DNA of 64,000 nucleotides from Planctomycetota bacterium. GTDB taxonomy: Bacteria > Planctomycetota > UBA1135 > GCA-002686595. Positions 22,693-44,617 of this stretch are shown in pieces. Where the stretch lies: assembly GCA_026692705.1 (NCBI GenBank), contig JAPLOE010000213.1:1-64000 (forward strand), in the 5' to 3' direction. The notes beneath the pieces are model-generated. The model ran no database searches. It was not told the DNA's origin and saw only the letters and a program-made list of their open reading frames with translations. The stretch's first letter is position 1; each line of letters opens with the position of its first letter. A program made the position numbers and the translations under genes.

Positions 22693-24606
<1,914 letters not shown>

Positions 24607-27495: not shown

Positions 27496-28103
27496 TTCGC
27501 CGCCTCCGCAGGCGCGAACTCGAGGTCGAGCGCGAGCGTGTCCTGGCCCGCGAGCTCGTCGTAGGGATCCCAAACCATGCCCGGCACCGCGATCACGCCT
27601 TGCAGTCTGGCACCGCCGCCGGGCAGGCGCATCCACGTGCAGTCGAATTGCACCTCGCGGGCGTGGCTGCGCTCGGCGCAGCGGCCGTGCATCGTCGCCA
27701 CGAGCACCCCGGGCACGGCCGAACGGCGCGTCTCGTTGGCCTGCGCGCGCAGCGCCACGTGACCCAGCCGCGTCGCGAGCACCTGATCCCCGACCCGCTC
27801 GAGCCCGAGCGTCAGCGTCCAGCCCTCGTCGCGCGCCAGCGTCTCGACCTGCCCCGCGGGCACGAACACGACCGCCTCCGCGCCCGGCCCGAACACGACG
27901 CGGCTGCGATCGGGGACGATCGCGAGCGTCTGCGCGACGCCGGGTGCACGCGAACCGAGCAAGTCGAGCGCGGTCGGCAGCACCTCGGTCGAGCTCGCGC
28001 GCTGCTCGGGATGCGGCGTGTGCGCGCGGGTCGCCTCGCGAACGCCGAGTGCCCCCAGCGCGATCGCCAGCGGAACGTACGTGATCCACGCCGGGGAGCT
28101 CAC
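27492..28103 (-). CDS. Membrane-anchored protein of unknown function, coupled to the histidine kinase
   Basis: Single N-terminal TM (ITYVPLAIALGALG); overlaps both neighbours by about 4 bp; no family recognised. Confidence 0.6.
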   Translation of the reverse strand: MSSPAWITYVPLAIALGALGVREATRAHTPHPEQRASSTEVLPTALDLLGSRAPGVAQTLAIVPDRSRVVFGPGAEAVVFVPAGQVETLARDEGWTLTLGLERVGDQVLATRLGHVALRAQANETRRSAVPGVLVATMHGRCAERSHAREVQFDCTWMRLPGGGARLQGVIAVPGMVWDPYDELAGQDTLALDLEFAPAEAAK

Positions 28104-29335
28104 GCCGGACTCCTCTCGCTCGCGAGAGCGTGGACCCACACGCGCGGTCGCCACAGCTCGCGCGTCGGCACGTAGTCGCCCGCCACCGACACGATCGTGT
28201 CGACGAGGTGCGGATGCCCCGCGAGCAGCCGGAACGCTGCGCTCACGAGGCGCGGATGCCGCAAGCCTCGCTGCAGGAGCGTCGAAACGGCCGCACGCGG
28301 CGCGATCTCGCGCTTGCGCCCCGCGAGGTACGGCGCGAGCGCCGCCGCATCCGTGCGGTAGTCGTGCAACGCCGGCTCGAGCGCGCTCGCGAGCATCTGG
28401 CCACCCTTGATCGCGAAGAAGATGCCCTCACCCGTCACCGGGTCGACGTAACCGGCCGCGTCGCCGACGAGCGCGACGCCGTCGAGCACCTGCGCGGAGG
28501 TCTTCATCGCCATCGAACCCGTGCCACGCACCGGATCGATGCGGCGGCCGCGCGCGATGCGCTCGCCGAGCAGCGGCGTGCGCGCGAGCCAGGTCTCGAG
28601 CAGCTCGTCGCGTCCGAGCTTCTCGCGCTCGTATTCCGCGCGGTCGAGCACGAGGTTGAGGCTCACCGCACCACCGTCGATCGGCGCGCAGGCGAAGAAG
28701 CCGTGCTCGAGGAAGTGCACCTCGGCGCGGTCGCCCCACGGCACGCCCTCGTAGCGCGTCGTCAGCGCGATCTTGCGCAGCCAGTTCGATTCCTTGCGGA
28801 CGCCCAGCGCCGTCGCGACGCCGGAGCGTGTGCCGTCGGCACCGATCGTCCAGCGCGCGCGGAGCGCGATCGGACTGCCACCCGGCTTGCGCGCGAGCAC
28901 GCCCGCGACCTCGCCGTCGGGACCGCGCAGGAGCTCGTCGACGCGCCAGCCTTCGTACAGGCGCGCGCCAGCGCGTTCCGCCGCGCGCAAGAGCACCTCG
29001 TCGAACACTTCGCGCCGCACGGCCCAGCCGTAGTCGAAGGGAGCGTGCGCGCGGCCGACGTCGACGAATTTCCCGCACACGCGGCGCCCGTGACCGTGCA
29101 GCACCATGCCACGCACCTCGCGCACGCCGCGGGCCTCGAGCTCCGGCCGCAGCCCGAGTTCCTCGAGCATCGGGATGACCTCGGGGCTCATGAACTCACC
29201 GCAGGCCTTGAAGCGCGGGAAACGGCGCGCGTCGACGAGCGCGACCGAGAAGCCCGCGCGCGCGAGCCGCAACGCGGTGGTCGAGCCCGCGGGACCGGCA
29301 CCGACGACGACGACGTCGTGAACGTGCTCACCCAC
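28100..29335 (-). CDS. FAD-dependent geranylgeranyl-reductase-family oxidoreductase
   Basis: VVVVGAGPAGSTTALRLARAG, FPRFKACGEFMSPEV, VALVGDAAGYVDPVTGEGIFFAIKGGQ. Confidence 0.88.
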   Translation of the reverse strand: MGEHVHDVVVVGAGPAGSTTALRLARAGFSVALVDARRFPRFKACGEFMSPEVIPMLEELGLRPELEARGVREVRGMVLHGHGRRVCGKFVDVGRAHAPFDYGWAVRREVFDEVLLRAAERAGARLYEGWRVDELLRGPDGEVAGVLARKPGGSPIALRARWTIGADGTRSGVATALGVRKESNWLRKIALTTRYEGVPWGDRAEVHFLEHGFFACAPIDGGAVSLNLVLDRAEYEREKLGRDELLETWLARTPLLGERIARGRRIDPVRGTGSMAMKTSAQVLDGVALVGDAAGYVDPVTGEGIFFAIKGGQMLASALEPALHDYRTDAAALAPYLAGRKREIAPRAAVSTLLQRGLRHPRLVSAAFRLLAGHPHLVDTIVSVAGDYVPTRELWRPRVWVHALASERSPA

Positions 29336-31316
29336 GCGCCACCTCCGCCGGACGGGCCTCGATCAGCAGCGCGGGCAGCAGGAGCACGTCGCACAGCAGC
29401 GCGACGACGATCGTGATCGCCGCCATGCCGCAAAATTCCGAGGTCGTCGAGAGCCGGCCGAACATGCCGATCGAGAAGCCCAGCCCGAGCACGACCGAGG
29501 TGATCAGCACGGCGCGACCGGAGTGCTGGTACACGCCTTCGAGCGCCGCCAGCCGCGCGACGCCGCGCGAGCGCGCCTCGCGGAAGCGGTGCAGCAGGTG
29601 GATCGTGTCGTCGACGATCAGGCCGAGCAGCACGGAACTGATCATGGCGGTGGCGACCGACAGCGGCCGCCCGAGGGCCGCGAGCGCGGCGTACACGACG
29701 ATGCACGGCAGGATGTTGGGCACCATGGCGAGAAGCGCGTAGCGCAGCGAACGGAAGCCCGCCCAGAACAGGAGGAAGAGCGTCGCGAGGCTCGTCAGCG
29801 TGCCGGTGAAGGCGCTGCGGATCAGGCGGCCGGAGTCGCGCGCGACCTGCACGGATGCGCCGGTGACGCGCACCTCGTGAGCGCCGAGCGCGGTGGCGTG
29901 CGCCTCGATGCGATCGAAGAGCTTCTCGCGCGCCGTGCTGCCCGAAGGCTTGAGCAGGAAACGCAGCAGCCAGTCGCCCGCTTCGGAGCGGCGCGGATAA
30001 CCGGCGGGGCCGGCGACGCCCGGTTCCTGCAGCAGGTTCGCGCCGAACAGCGCGAGCTCGGCAGAGCCGGCGAGCGGCGAGCGCGCGGGCACGAGCACGT
30101 CGAACACGTCGCTGCCGCCGACGAAACGCGCGATGCGCTCCGATTCGCGCCGAAACTCGTGCTCCTCGGGCAGCACACGCTGCGGATCGTTGTCGACCTG
30201 CACGTGCGGCCAGAGCGCGAGCCCACCGAGCGCGACCAGCAGCGCACAGGCGCGGATCGCGAGCGCGCGGGCCGCGAGCCAGTCGGCGACACGGCGGCCG
30301 AAGAGCTCCGACAGCGAGCCCTGGCGCTCGACGATCGCGGGCGAAACCTTGCGCGCGAGGCGACCGAGCACGATCGGCGTGAGCGTGGCGGCGAGCGCGT
30401 ACGTGAGCGCGACTCCGAGCGCCGCGAAAACGCCGAAGTCGATCACGGCCGGAATCGAGCTGAACGACAGCGACAGGAAGCCGACGACCGTCGTCAGCGC
30501 CGCGAGCAAGGCCGGCCGCCGCAGCTCGAGCACCGCCTGTTCGGCCGAGTGGCGCGGCTCGCGTCCCGCGCGCAACCCGTCGAGGTAGGCCTCGACCCAG
30601 TGCACGCCTGCGGCGACGCCGACGGTCAGGAGCACCGGCTGCAGCATGACCGAGATCGGATCGAGCTCGCGCCCCAGCAGCGCGAACGCGCCCGAGGTCC
30701 ACAGGATCGCGATGCCGGCCGGCGCGAGGATCGCGAGCACGAGCCCGAGGTGGCGGTAGTAGACGAGCAGCAGCAGCACGAATCCCGCGACGACCAGCGG
30801 CAGCACGCGCCCCTGCTCCGCCCGCACCTCGCGCGCGATCACGACTTCGCCGACCGCGAGGCCGGAGAGCGACGAACGCAGAGTCGGCGGCGTGCGCGCG
30901 GCGAGCAGGCGCTCGAGCGACTCGACCGAGGGCGCGAAATTGCCGCCGGGAGCCGCGAGGTCGATCGCCCACACCGCGCTCGAGTCCGAACGCGACGGCC
31001 ACGGCTGGATGCGCGCGATCGCCGGCTCCGCGAGCAGGCCCTTGCGCAGCTCCTCCAGCGAATCGAGCTCGACCCGCGTCAGCGTCCCCACCCCTTCCGG
31101 CACCGCGCGGAAGGCCGCGACGACCGTCACGTCCGGCCCGAACTGCTCGACCCGCCGCGCCAGCGCGACCGTCTCCGTCGAATTCGGCGACTTCAGCGAG
31201 CGGTTCTCGATGTCGACCTCGAGCCCCCGCTGCGCCCAGACGAACGCCAGCGTCACGAGGAGCAGGGCGGTCACCACGAGGGCGTCGCGCAGGCCAGAGG
31301 TACGGACAGGAACCAA
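29328..31316 (-). CDS. MMPL/RND-family exporter
   Basis: About 12 TM, duplicated architecture, SVMLQPVLLTVGVAAGVHWVEAYLDG and SSVLLGLIVDDTIHLLHRFRE. TTG start as listed; start uncertain. Confidence 0.88.
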   Translation of the reverse strand: MVPVRTSGLRDALVVTALLLVTLAFVWAQRGLEVDIENRSLKSPNSTETVALARRVEQFGPDVTVVAAFRAVPEGVGTLTRVELDSLEELRKGLLAEPAIARIQPWPSRSDSSAVWAIDLAAPGGNFAPSVESLERLLAARTPPTLRSSLSGLAVGEVVIAREVRAEQGRVLPLVVAGFVLLLLVYYRHLGLVLAILAPAGIAILWTSGAFALLGRELDPISVMLQPVLLTVGVAAGVHWVEAYLDGLRAGREPRHSAEQAVLELRRPALLAALTTVVGFLSLSFSSIPAVIDFGVFAALGVALTYALAATLTPIVLGRLARKVSPAIVERQGSLSELFGRRVADWLAARALAIRACALLVALGGLALWPHVQVDNDPQRVLPEEHEFRRESERIARFVGGSDVFDVLVPARSPLAGSAELALFGANLLQEPGVAGPAGYPRRSEAGDWLLRFLLKPSGSTAREKLFDRIEAHATALGAHEVRVTGASVQVARDSGRLIRSAFTGTLTSLATLFLLFWAGFRSLRYALLAMVPNILPCIVVYAALAALGRPLSVATAMISSVLLGLIVDDTIHLLHRFREARSRGVARLAALEGVYQHSGRAVLITSVVLGLGFSIGMFGRLSTTSEFCGMAAITIVVALLCDVLLLPALLIEARPAEVARG

Positions 31317-31533: not shown

Positions 31534-32721
31534 ATGACTTCACGCTTCCTTCAGGCTTTCGGCGCGCTCGCGCTCGCCAGCCTCGTGCTCGGCTCGGTCG
31601 CGGCGCTCAGCGTCGTCAAGAGCCGGCTCAACATCACCGTCTCCGAGGCGGACGAGAGCCCGGCCCGCGGGCCCGATCCGCTCGAGCTGCTGCGCGCCGA
31701 CGTCACGGAACTGCGCGGCGAGGTGGGAGCGATCGGCACCGCTTTGCCCGAGCACCTGCAGGTCCTCCACCAGGCGCTTTCGGACGCCGCCGACCAGCGA
31801 TCGCAGACGGCCGCCGCCGAGCTGGCCGAGCTGCGCCGCCAGGTGAACGCGCTGCAGTCGCGCCTCGACGCGTCCGCGGCCGAGCTCACCGCGCTGCGCA
31901 CGCAGAACCACGACACGCTCACGCGCCTCGCCGGCGCCGTCAACGAACTCTCCGCCGCCGTGCAGTCGAGCGCGAGTCAGGCCGCCGCGCTCGCGAACTC
32001 CGCCTCCGCCATCGAGAGCAAGCCGATCGAGGTCGTCGCGGTCGAAGTGCCCGTCATCGCGAGCGAAACGCCGGCGCCCGCCGCGCAACCCGTCGTCGCC
32101 GAGCCGGCCGCAGCTCCCGCGGAACCCGCGAAAAAGGGCTTCCTTTCGTTCAAGGTGCCCGAGAAAGGCTTCCGCTTCGAAGGCCGCCAGAAGCTCGGGA
32201 TCGTCGCGAGCCTCTCGCGCGTCGGTTTCGACGCCAAGAGCACGCTGCACGACTTCAGCGGCGTCACGCAGAAGGTCGAGGGCGAGCTGATCGTCGATCT
32301 CGCGCAGCCGGGCGCCTCGCCGTCGGGCAAGCTCGAAGTCGATGCGTCGTCGCTCGACACCGGCCTCGCCGATCGCGACGAAGGCATGCGCGAGCTGCTC
32401 AAGACCAAGGAACACTCCAAGCTCGTGTTCGAGTGGACCGGCTTCGAGCCCGACAAGGTCGACGTCGCCGCGCAGAAGGTCACGGGCAAGGCGCGCGGCA
32501 ACCTGACGCTGCGCGGCAAGAGCCGCGAGGTCACGCTGCCGGTAACGGTCACCGTCGATGCGAGCAAGCGCGTCGGCATCGAGGGCGAGCTCACGATCCA
32601 GCTGACCGACTTCGGCATAGAGCCGCCGAGCCAGCTCGGCATGATCTCGGTCGAGGACAAGCTCAAGCTGTGGATCTCGCTGCGCGCGCGCACGCTCGGG
32701 CCCGTGGAGGTCGCGAAGTGA
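31534..32721 (+). CDS. YceI-family lipid-binding domain protein with N-terminal TM and coiled coil
   Basis: C-terminal KLGIVASLSRVGFDAKSTLHDFSGVTQKVEGEL...LTLRGKSREVTLPVTV; coiled coil ELAELRRQVNALQSRLDAS. Confidence 0.85.
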   Translation: MTSRFLQAFGALALASLVLGSVAALSVVKSRLNITVSEADESPARGPDPLELLRADVTELRGEVGAIGTALPEHLQVLHQALSDAADQRSQTAAAELAELRRQVNALQSRLDASAAELTALRTQNHDTLTRLAGAVNELSAAVQSSASQAAALANSASAIESKPIEVVAVEVPVIASETPAPAAQPVVAEPAAAPAEPAKKGFLSFKVPEKGFRFEGRQKLGIVASLSRVGFDAKSTLHDFSGVTQKVEGELIVDLAQPGASPSGKLEVDASSLDTGLADRDEGMRELLKTKEHSKLVFEWTGFEPDKVDVAAQKVTGKARGNLTLRGKSREVTLPVTVTVDASKRVGIEGELTIQLTDFGIEPPSQLGMISVEDKLKLWISLRARTLGPVEVAK

Positions 32722-33149
32722 GCCGCGGCGCCGCTCCGTTCGCGCTCGCGAGCCTCGCGCTCGCTCTCGCGCCGGCCTGCATCACGCCGAGCGTGGTCGC
32801 GAGCTCGGGTCGCTCCGTGCAGGCCGAACCTGCCGCGCTCGACTGGCAACCGGCCGGTCCCGAGGCGCTCGACGGCTTCTTCGAGTCGGTCTCGATCGAA
32901 GGCGAGGCCGCGGCCGCGCTCGTGCGCATCTACTACCACTTCACTCGCACCGGGACGTACACGGGCGCCGCGCTCGTGATCGGCGGAAACGAGCCGGAAT
33001 TCCAGACGCTTTCGGGGCAGTGGAAGTTCGGACCCGAAGGGCTCGACCTCGGCGACGGAGTGCCGGTGCGGCTGCTCGCGGCGCCGGAGCACCTCCGCAT
33101 CGAGAGCGAAGGCGGCGTCGTCACCCTGCGGAAACGAGCGCTCGAGTAG
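32718..33149 (+). CDS. Small hypothetical lipoprotein/secreted protein
   Basis: GTG start overlaps the YceI stop (GTGA); signal sequence; ends TAG overlapping the next GTG. Confidence 0.6.
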   Translation: MSRGAAPFALASLALALAPACITPSVVASSGRSVQAEPAALDWQPAGPEALDGFFESVSIEGEAAAALVRIYYHFTRTGTYTGAALVIGGNEPEFQTLSGQWKFGPEGLDLGDGVPVRLLAAPEHLRIESEGGVVTLRKRALE

Positions 33150-33853
33150 TGGCCAAGGCGAACGATCTCACGCTCTACGACACGCACGCGGACCAGTGGT
33201 GGGACGCGCGCTCGCGGGCGTTCCGTTCGCTGCACCGCGTCAACGAGTTCCGCACCGCGCTGCTCACCGCGTGGCTGGGCACGAACCTCGAGGGGCAGGT
33301 CGCGGTCGACCTCGGCTGCGGCGGAGGGCTCCTGTGCGCGCACCTCGAGAGCTGCGGAGCGCGCTGGATCGGCGTCGACCTGAGCTTCGAGAGCCTCAAG
33401 ACGGGCCAAGGTCGTCTCGGGCGCCGTTTTGCGCGCGCGGACGTCGCGCACGTGCCGCTGAAGTCGGGCTGCGCGGACCTCGTGCTCGCGGCGGACGTGC
33501 TCGAGCACGTGCAGGACACGCGCGCTGTGCTCGCGGAAGCCGCACGCCTGCTGAAGCCGGGCGGTGCGCTGTACGTCAACACGATCAACCGCACGCGGCG
33601 CGCCAAGCTGCTCGCCGTCGATCTCGCCGAGGGCGTCGGGCTCGTGCCGCGTGGCACGCACGATGCGGCGCTGTTCGTCGATCCCGACGAGCTGCGCGCG
33701 GAAGCCTGGCACCTTCGACTGAGCCTCGAGGAACTGCAGGGCGAAAGCGTCGACGTGATCCGCACGGTGCGGAGCTGGGCCATCGCGCTGCGCCGAAGCA
33801 ACGACATCTCGGTCGGGTACAGCGCCCTCTTTCGAAAGGTTTCGAGCGCTTGA
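33149..33853 (+). CDS. SAM-dependent methyltransferase, UbiG-like
   Basis: VAVDLGCGGGLLCAHLESCGARWIGVDLS...ADVLEHVQDTRAVLAEAARLLKPGG. Confidence 0.88.
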   Translation: MAKANDLTLYDTHADQWWDARSRAFRSLHRVNEFRTALLTAWLGTNLEGQVAVDLGCGGGLLCAHLESCGARWIGVDLSFESLKTGQGRLGRRFARADVAHVPLKSGCADLVLAADVLEHVQDTRAVLAEAARLLKPGGALYVNTINRTRRAKLLAVDLAEGVGLVPRGTHDAALFVDPDELRAEAWHLRLSLEELQGESVDVIRTVRSWAIALRRSNDISVGYSALFRKVSSA

Positions 33854-34587
33854 GCCGCGCCCGCCGAATCTCCCTCGCGCTCGTGTACGGTGTCTCGTCG
33901 CACCTGACTTTTGCCGTCGCCGTCGCGTGGATGATCGTTTCGCTCTACGACGGGCTGCGCCCGGGCCGTGGCCCGTTGCAGGGCACCTGGGCCTGGATCG
34001 CGAACCTCGCGCTCGTCGCGCAGTTCCCGCTGCTCCACTCGTGGCTGCTCGCGCCATCGGGACGCGCCGCGCTCTCGCGCCTCGCGCCGAAGGAGTTCGG
34101 GCGTGACCTCGCGCCGACGACCTTCGCTTGGCTCGGCAGCCTGCAGGTGCTCGCGACGTTCGCGTTGTGGTCGCCGACCGGCATCGTGCTGCACGAGGCC
34201 GAAGGCGCGAGCCTGTGGTTCTTCCGCGCGCTGTTCGCCGCGAGCTGGCTGTTCCTCATCAAGGCGCTCAGCGACGCTGGGCTCGGACTGCAGACCGGCT
34301 CGATCGGCTGGACCGCGGTGCTCAAGGGCGAGCGTCCCCGCTACGGGGAAATGCCTACTCACGGCCTGTTCCGCGCCTGCCGCCAGCCGGTGTACCTCGG
34401 TTTCGCGCTGACGCTGTGGACCGGACCCGTGCACACGCTCGACAGCCTCGTGCTCGCGGTCCTATGGTCGCTCTACTGCGCGATCGGCCCGCTCCACAAG
34501 GAGCGTCGTTATCTCCGCATCTACGGGCAACGTTTCGAGAGCTACCGCTCCAGCGTGCCTTACTTCCTGCCTCGAATCCGCCCATGA
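33850..34587 (+). CDS. Isoprenylcysteine carboxyl methyltransferase (ICMT)-like membrane methyltransferase
   Basis: Multiple TM; GLFRACRQPVYLGFALTLWTGP...GPLHKERRYLRIYGQRFESYRSSVPYFLP. Confidence 0.8.
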   Translation: MSRARRISLALVYGVSSHLTFAVAVAWMIVSLYDGLRPGRGPLQGTWAWIANLALVAQFPLLHSWLLAPSGRAALSRLAPKEFGRDLAPTTFAWLGSLQVLATFALWSPTGIVLHEAEGASLWFFRALFAASWLFLIKALSDAGLGLQTGSIGWTAVLKGERPRYGEMPTHGLFRACRQPVYLGFALTLWTGPVHTLDSLVLAVLWSLYCAIGPLHKERRYLRIYGQRFESYRSSVPYFLPRIRP

Positions 34588-35633
34588 GAATCGCTTCCGC
34601 CGCCAGCGCCTTCCCCAAGTACTACTACGACCAGAAGACGGTGCAGGCGCGACTCGAGCGCATCTGGGCGCACAAGCCGGAGATCGTGCGGCGCCTGCCG
34701 GCGCTGATGGACAACTGCGGCGTCGAGGGTCGTGCGTTCGCGCTCGAGATCAACGAGTACGAGAAGCTCGAGAACTTCACCGACTTCAACGACCAGTGGA
34801 TCCGCGTGGCGCTCGAGCTCGGCCAGCAGGCCGTGCAGAAGGCGCTCGATCGCGCGGGGCTCAAGCCCGCGGACGTCGACCTGATCCTGTTCTCGACCGT
34901 GACCGGCCTCGCGGCGCCGTCGATCGACGCGCGCCTGTGCAACAAGATGGGCTTCCGCTCGGACGTGCGCCGCATGCCGTTGTTCGGGCTGGGCTGCGTC
35001 GCGGGAGCCGCGGCGCTCGCGCGCGCGACGGACTTCGTGCGCGGACGGCCCAAGGGCGTTGCGCTCGTGCTGACGATCGAGCTGTGCTCGCTGACCTGGC
35101 AGCGCGATGACATCTCCCTCGCGCATGTGATTTCCTGCGGGCTTTTCGGCGATGGCGCGAGCGCCGCGGTCGTCGTCGGAGCCGAGCACCCCGCGCGCGG
35201 CCTGACGGTCGTCGACACGCGCTCGGTGTTCTACCGCGACACCGAGGACGTGATGGGCTGGACCATCGGGGCGCACGGCTTCAAGATCGTGCTCTCGCCT
35301 TCCGTGCCCTCGGTCGCGAAGTAGCGCCTCGGCCCCGACTGCGCCAAGTTCCTCGCCGACCACAAGCTCACGCCGCAGGACATCGCGTTCTGGATCTGCC
35401 ACCCCGGCGGCCCCAAGGTGCTCGAGGCCGCGCGCGACTCGCTCGGCCTCGACGACGAAGCGGTCGCGATCTCCTGGGACTCGCTGCGCAACGCGGGCAA
35501 CCTCTCGAGCGCGTCGGTGATGCTCATCCTCGAGCGCACGCTCGAGCAGCGCCCGCCGAAGCCCGGCACCAAGGGCGTGCTGCTCGCCATGGGCCCCGGC
35601 TTCTGCTCGGAACTGCTGCTCCTGCAGGCCTGA
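34584..35633 (+). pseudogene. Type III polyketide synthase (chalcone/stilbene synthase family) interrupted by one in-frame TAG at 35322-35324
   Basis: Cys region FGLGCVAGAAALARA before the TAG; FWICHPGGPKVLEA (His) and AGNLSSASVMLILE (Asn) after it, in the same frame. May be a pseudogene, sequencing error or readthrough. Confidence 0.85.
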
Positions 35634-43702: not shown

Positions 43703-43739
43703 AGAACCTCTCCCCTACCCAACTCGAGGAACTCCTCTC

Positions 43740-44207
43740 ATGACCCTGGATTGGCCTTTCTGGATCGCCGGAGCGTGCATCGGTGGCTTCGTGCCGCTCT
43801 TCGCGCTCGTTTCCGGCAAGTTGCTCGGCATCTCGTCGGGCTATTCGGAGCTGTGCTCGATCGCGAAGCCCGCGGGACCGGAGCGCTGGAAGCTCTGGTT
43901 CGCGCTCGGGCTGCCGCTCGGCGGTTTCGCGGCGTCGGGACTCGCAGGCACGCACAGGCTCGAGACGGTCGCCGAACCGGTGCGAGCCGCGCTCGGGGTC
44001 GGTGACGTCGCAACTCTCGCGTTGCTCGTCGTCGGCGGAGCGCTGATCGGGTACGGCGCGCGCACGGCCGGCGGCTGCACGAGCGGCCATTCGATCGTCG
44101 GCCTCGCGCTCGGCGCGAAGTCGAGCCTCGTCGCGACGCTCGGCTTCATGGCAGGAGGTTTCGCGGCGACGTGGGCGTTGGTCGCATTGACCGGAGGTGC
44201 CGCGTGA
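43740..44207 (+). CDS. YeeE/YedE (TsuA/PmpA-like) sulfur transport half-protein
   Basis: GYGARTAGGCTSGHSIVGLALGAKSSLVAT. Confidence 0.88.
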   Translation: MTLDWPFWIAGACIGGFVPLFALVSGKLLGISSGYSELCSIAKPAGPERWKLWFALGLPLGGFAASGLAGTHRLETVAEPVRAALGVGDVATLALLVVGGALIGYGARTAGGCTSGHSIVGLALGAKSSLVATLGFMAGGFAATWALVALTGGAA

Positions 44208-44617
44208 AGGCGCTCGTTTTCGTGGCGAGCGGAGCCCTGTTCGGCTTTCTGCTCTCGGCCGCACGCGCGACGGACTACACCGCGATCCACGGCATGTTCC
44301 TCCTGAAGGACCTGCACCTGTTCGGCGTGATCGGCGTCGCGGTGGCGACGGCCGCGCTCGGGCTGTGGCTCGTGAGGAGAGCGGGAGTTCGCGCGCTCGG
44401 TGGCACGCCGATCTCGCTCGCGCACAAGCCCTTCCACAACGCGGTTTTCGCGGGGGGAATCGTGTTCGGGATCGGCTGGGCGCTCTCGGGCACTTGCCCA
44501 GGCACGGCGCTCGCGCAACTCGGCGAAGGCAAGGCGTACGCGCTCGCCACGGTGCTCGGCATCGTCGGCGGCACGTGGCTGCGGCAACGACAGACCAGTC
44601 CCCCGAAGGTCGCGTAG
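44204..44617 (+). CDS. YeeE/YedE (PmpB-like) sulfur transport half-protein
   Basis: GGIVFGIGWALSGTCPGTALAQLGEGK; GTGA overlap with the previous gene. Confidence 0.88.
   Translation: MKALVFVASGALFGFLLSAARATDYTAIHGMFLLKDLHLFGVIGVAVATAALGLWLVRRAGVRALGGTPISLAHKPFHNAVFAGGIVFGIGWALSGTCPGTALAQLGEGKAYALATVLGIVGGTWLRQRQTSPPKVA

Follow-up and report, generated by a model that had tools for sequence, protein, structure and literature searches.

A private in-frame amber codon in a type III PKS gene of a Planctomycetota assembly, most simply read as a recent loss-of-function mutation or a sequencing error

The type III PKS gene described here is the last of a five-gene cluster located on contig C213. The assembly is a Planctomycetota MAG of 4.95 Mb in 348 contigs, 89% complete, and the stretch of it that we analysed, 64,000 nucleotides long, is referred to as the window. 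Reading along the forward strand, we see that the cluster begins with a gene for a YceI-domain (lipid/isoprenoid-binding) protein (31534–32721, +; Pfam PF04264, E = 3e-25; synteny with "Saltatorellus ferox" Poly30), followed by that of a putative small lipoprotein (32712–33149, +), for which there is no Pfam match and 40% identity to the gene found at the same place in Poly30. Two methyltransferases come next: a UbiG-like SAM methyltransferase (33149–33853, +; TIGR01983, 116 bits against a cut-off of 103), which also adjoins the PKS in the relatives G006, G002 and G001 and in Poly30, and an MddA/ICMT-like membrane methyltransferase (33852–34586, +; 50% identity to its Poly30 counterpart; NCBIfam NF045656, E = 1.4e-20, a match below that model's cut-off), the stop codon of which overlaps the start of the PKS gene (ATGA). 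On the opposite strand lie two divergent neighbours—an MMPL/RND-type exporter (29328–31316, −; PF03176, E = 7e-19), found beside the cluster in several relatives, and an FAD-dependent, geranylgeranyl-reductase-like oxidoreductase (28100–29335, −; PF01494 and TIGR02032; a 41% match in Poly30). In the relative G005 an intact PKS gene (G005:C27; L078 / L158) stands without the preceding methyltransferase, lipoprotein and YceI genes seen in the other relatives.

The PKS frame opens with ATG at 34584 and runs on the forward strand for 349 codons, with a TAG at 35322–35324, in frame, after 246 codons. The original prediction of a split gene at this point is borne out, as is the continuation of the frame beyond the stop; its end, previously placed at 35633, is here refined to a terminal TGA occupying 35631–35633. 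The 5′ part (34584–35321, +; 246 codons, including Cys138) matches Pfam PF00195 (Chal_sti_synt_N, E = 8.6e-19) and the 3′ part (35325–35633, +; 102 codons plus the TGA, including His273 and Asn306) matches PF02797 (Chal_sti_synt_C, E = 3e-15) as well as PF08541 (ACP_syn_III_C), such that the N and C domains of the chalcone/stilbene synthase family flank the TAG in a single frame, both above their cut-offs. The nucleophile Cys138 (FGLGC) precedes the stop and His273 (ICHPGG) and Asn306 (AGNLSS) follow it, just as had been proposed from the first inspection of the locus; the Cys-His-Asn triad, carried by one polypeptide in all five intact same-genus orthologues, is here not on a single chain. 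Given the known chemistry of this triad, a 246-aa product would be predicted to be inactive.

The 5′ part is 97.6% identical to the intact orthologue of G004 and the 3′ part 97%. Each same-genus relative has a single uninterrupted protein that both halves match (77–98%), so that their pairing is more than chance. All five of these orthologues are 349 aa long and intact, with identities of 98, 91, 90, 89 and 77% over the first 246 aa, and all five have GAG at the site of the TAG; an in-frame stop was likewise found in none (0/80) of the PKS genes of 80 further relatives (GTDB genomes, a set in which the same-genus genomes above are also counted). Orthologues ending naturally at this position, the outcome that the original prediction had offered against itself, were looked for and none was seen. 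This speaks against a programmed short product or two-piece enzyme, in which the 246-aa form, or separately made N and C halves, would be functional: an open frame downstream of the TAG is all that speaks for it, set against a divided catalytic triad, the want of any orthologue that ends or splits at the site, and the lack of a usable start after the stop. Reinitiation was considered and rejected; between the TAG and the His region no start preceded by a plausible ribosome-binding site is found, and GTG first occurs in frame at 35418. We regard such an arrangement as extremely improbable.

With respect to G004, the stop differs from GAG by a single base, a G to T change at the first codon position. 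Glu occupies the site in nearly all close relatives, whereas distant ones have Thr, Ser, Ala or, in the case of Mycobacterium tuberculosis Pks11, Arg; judged from these alignments, Glu is common at this position but not essential, and the Arg of Pks11 shows that the fold can do without it. Polarising the changes in this lineage since the G004 split against G006, G002, G005 and G001 gives nonsynonymous:synonymous counts of 2:19 upstream of the stop and 2:3 downstream, with the stop itself counted as an extra change (Fisher P 0.15); degeneration of the 3′ part by an excess of amino-acid changes is thus not significant. The changes since the split are still mostly silent, and the stop is therefore young; the gene gives no sign of long relaxation. 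Neither the 3′ half of the PKS gene nor the remaining genes of the operon show decay, and the TAG is the only in-frame stop among the 33 genes (13,008 codons) that could be matched from the syntenic G005 contig.

Could the TAG be read through? Recoding or suppression, with TAG translated as Glu, Gln or Pyl and a full-length PKS being made, would be in keeping with the conserved frame downstream, with the range of residues tolerated at the site in distant relatives and with a run of Glu codons at other private stops (see below), but the decoding machinery and the general use of TAG in this genome argue against it. RF1 is present (TIGR00019, 437 bits, above cut-off). No CUA or UUA anticodon is found among the 41 tRNAs matched by Rfam, a result which in an 89% complete assembly is not absolute; ARAGORN, run on 1.9 Mb, reports tRNA-Sec as the only stop-reading tRNA. 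Its call of a 91-nt tRNA-Pro (CGG) at 44327–44417 is probably spurious, lying inside a coding gene and having no Rfam tRNA match. The PylS profile (TIGR03912) has no match in the genome, though it detects the Methanosarcina control; the search for an amber suppressor tRNA or pyl genes advised in the original prediction has thus returned neither a CUA/UUA tRNA nor PylS. TAG ends 329 of 1180 gene calls (28%) in 1.58 Mb, and both TAG and TAA are normal terminators here; when compared with G005, seven of eight TAG-ended genes of the contig share their end point with the orthologue, and only the PKS gene does not. Family searches across the whole genome revealed no in-frame stops in ABC_tran (56 matches), Sigma54_activat (24) or ACR_tran (12), and one in-frame TAG in Pkinase (41 matches). 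The known changes of stop-codon meaning in bacteria reassign UGA, and the in-frame stops of pseudogenes, which mostly arise by single changes from certain codons, can mimic recoding (PMC8629427). A candidate for genus-wide amber use, provided by three TAGs in a YeeE/YedE-like gene pair of G005, was rejected, since a frameshift is present there as well and the pair has decayed to a pseudogene; this copy lies at about 23350–24100 of G005:C27 (L159), and the corresponding pair in the window (43737–44617) is intact.

The genome itself offers a positive control for what a recoded stop looks like. An all-frames tblastn scan for stops proved too noisy at 70% GC and gave way to one confined to coding frames. 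A codon-usage scan, covering 1.58 Mb and later 1.90 Mb, searched for coding frames that continue across a stop. In-frame TGA codons were found in five selenoprotein-like genes (C97:33905, C124:14329, C241:57744, C115:4635 and C104:8020): a deiodinase-like protein (GSFTUPPF; NF038285), a SenB-like selenosugar synthase (SAPAUPP; TIGR04348), an FG-GAP-type protein (DLUSFFW) and two thioredoxin-like proteins, one ResA/TlpA-like (WUGPC) and a second with YWUGPC. For the four genes compared (the SenB-like gene, the FG-GAP-type gene and the two thioredoxin-like genes) the TGA is kept in same-genus genomes, in the case of the second thioredoxin-like gene (C104) at a single locus of G004 (L326). A tRNA-Sec gene is also present (C339:3082–3175). 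Sec in SenB and in an FG-GAP protein may be little described. Like the PKS gene, these genes have a stop in frame and a conserved frame beyond it; unlike it, their stop is TGA, is shared by relatives in the four genes compared and is served by tRNA-Sec, whereas the stop of the PKS gene is a private TAG for which we found no decoding tRNA. Taking these observations together we consider recoding very unlikely, and of the three options originally put forward—recent nonsense mutation, assembly error, and recoding or suppression—the first two survive and the third is unsupported.

Across 1.9 Mb of this genome the same scan gave three further private in-frame stops, each inside a gene: a TAG in place of the Glu codon of a protein kinase's APE motif (C135:19359; L181), a second TAG (C124:29785; L196) and a TAA (C173:3188; L211). 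At all three the relatives have Glu (GAG or GAA), so that each of the four private stops, that of the PKS included, turns GAR into TAR by a G to T change at the first position, and none of the four TAG/TAA codons is shared by any relative—again in contrast to the recoded TGAs that were tested, which are kept. Four is a lower bound, for interrupted genes in which a start codon follows shortly after the stop may have escaped the scan. The chance of all four stops striking Glu codons is 0.012 if one-step codons are left unweighted and 0.08 if G:C to T:A changes alone are allowed, values calculated with codon shares from the 1.58-Mb gene calls, after the pattern had been seen and with n = 4. We take the pattern to be mildly unexpected, and as a hint toward G-to-T base-call error or damage rather than as evidence of a new code. 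A low-level suppressor reading some UAG and UAA codons as glutamate, under which private stops at Glu would be tolerated and not null, we hold to be exceedingly unlikely; we know of no bacterium in which UAR is read as Glu.

That the contig carries a consensus base error, or a minority variant from a mixture of strains, with a sense codon in the organism itself, is a serious possibility to which we would assign a little less than an even chance. The genome is after all a MAG in 348 contigs, the stop is private to it, the PKS gene is otherwise intact, and the shared G-to-T change at Glu codons sits more comfortably with a G:C to T:A bias (0.08) than without one (0.012). Against this, there is no clear genome-wide excess of such changes: they make up 16 of 108 private substitutions here and 17 of 147 in G004 with the stops excluded (Fisher P 0.46, a comparison of low power). 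A mutator or oxidative damage, sought through the same spectrum, accordingly finds no significant support at that power, and a per-site error rate sufficient to produce four stops would be invisible in it. All four interrupted genes, moreover, look accessory and not essential, which also tells against error.

The other reading, which we judge about as probable as not, is that a recent single-base change, private to the lineage or strain from which the assembly derives, introduced a nonsense codon into this gene for a PKS of the alkylresorcinol-synthase type. If the base is real, a G to T change at the first base of a Glu codon would have created the TAG, RF1 would be expected to stop translation at codon 247, and the pathway's core enzyme would be lost because the resulting 246-aa product, presumably inactive, would be without the C-terminal half that bears His273 and Asn306. 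Two observations weigh against a nonsense mutation: the undecayed state of the operon and of the 3′ half of the gene, and the four-of-four GAR to TAR pattern, which would fit G-to-T consensus errors too.

Most simply, then, either the PKS gene has lately been disabled by mutation or the sequence is in error at this base, and both explanations are ordinary. On its own the stop carries little weight, meaning that the alkylresorcinol pathway probably does not work in one strain or that a single base of a MAG is wrong. What is more useful is the approach: a recoded stop is common to relatives and accompanied by a tRNA, a pair of features by which the TGA Sec codons pass and the TAG fails. That all four private stops fall at Glu codons also counsels caution before in-frame TAGs from this assembly are cited.

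Comparison with characterised relatives indicates what the enzyme might have made. Among solved structures the best relative is M. tuberculosis Pks11 (PDB: 4jao; E = 1e-92 over the full length), deposited as an alpha-pyrone synthase, with which Cys138, the His and the Asn all align and which carries its Arg at the position of the TAG; the residue aligned with Cys138 is Cys in 4jao and Ser in the otherwise matching sequence of 4jat. Matching in gene context is the cluster of "Saltatorellus ferox" Poly30 (Poly30_13900–13920, CP036434.1), in which tblastn synteny recovers the same five-gene order, with 52% identity for the PKS and 46% and 50% for the methyltransferases. The Poly30 PKS produced penta- and heptadecylresorcinols in Corynebacterium glutamicum (PMC10896814); alkylresorcinol synthesis from fatty acyl-CoA is known for this homologue only. 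From homology and gene context, an intact form of the PKS described here would most likely make an alkylresorcinol as well; the difference between the two clusters is that the PKS gene of Poly30 is intact and that of the present assembly is interrupted at codon 247.
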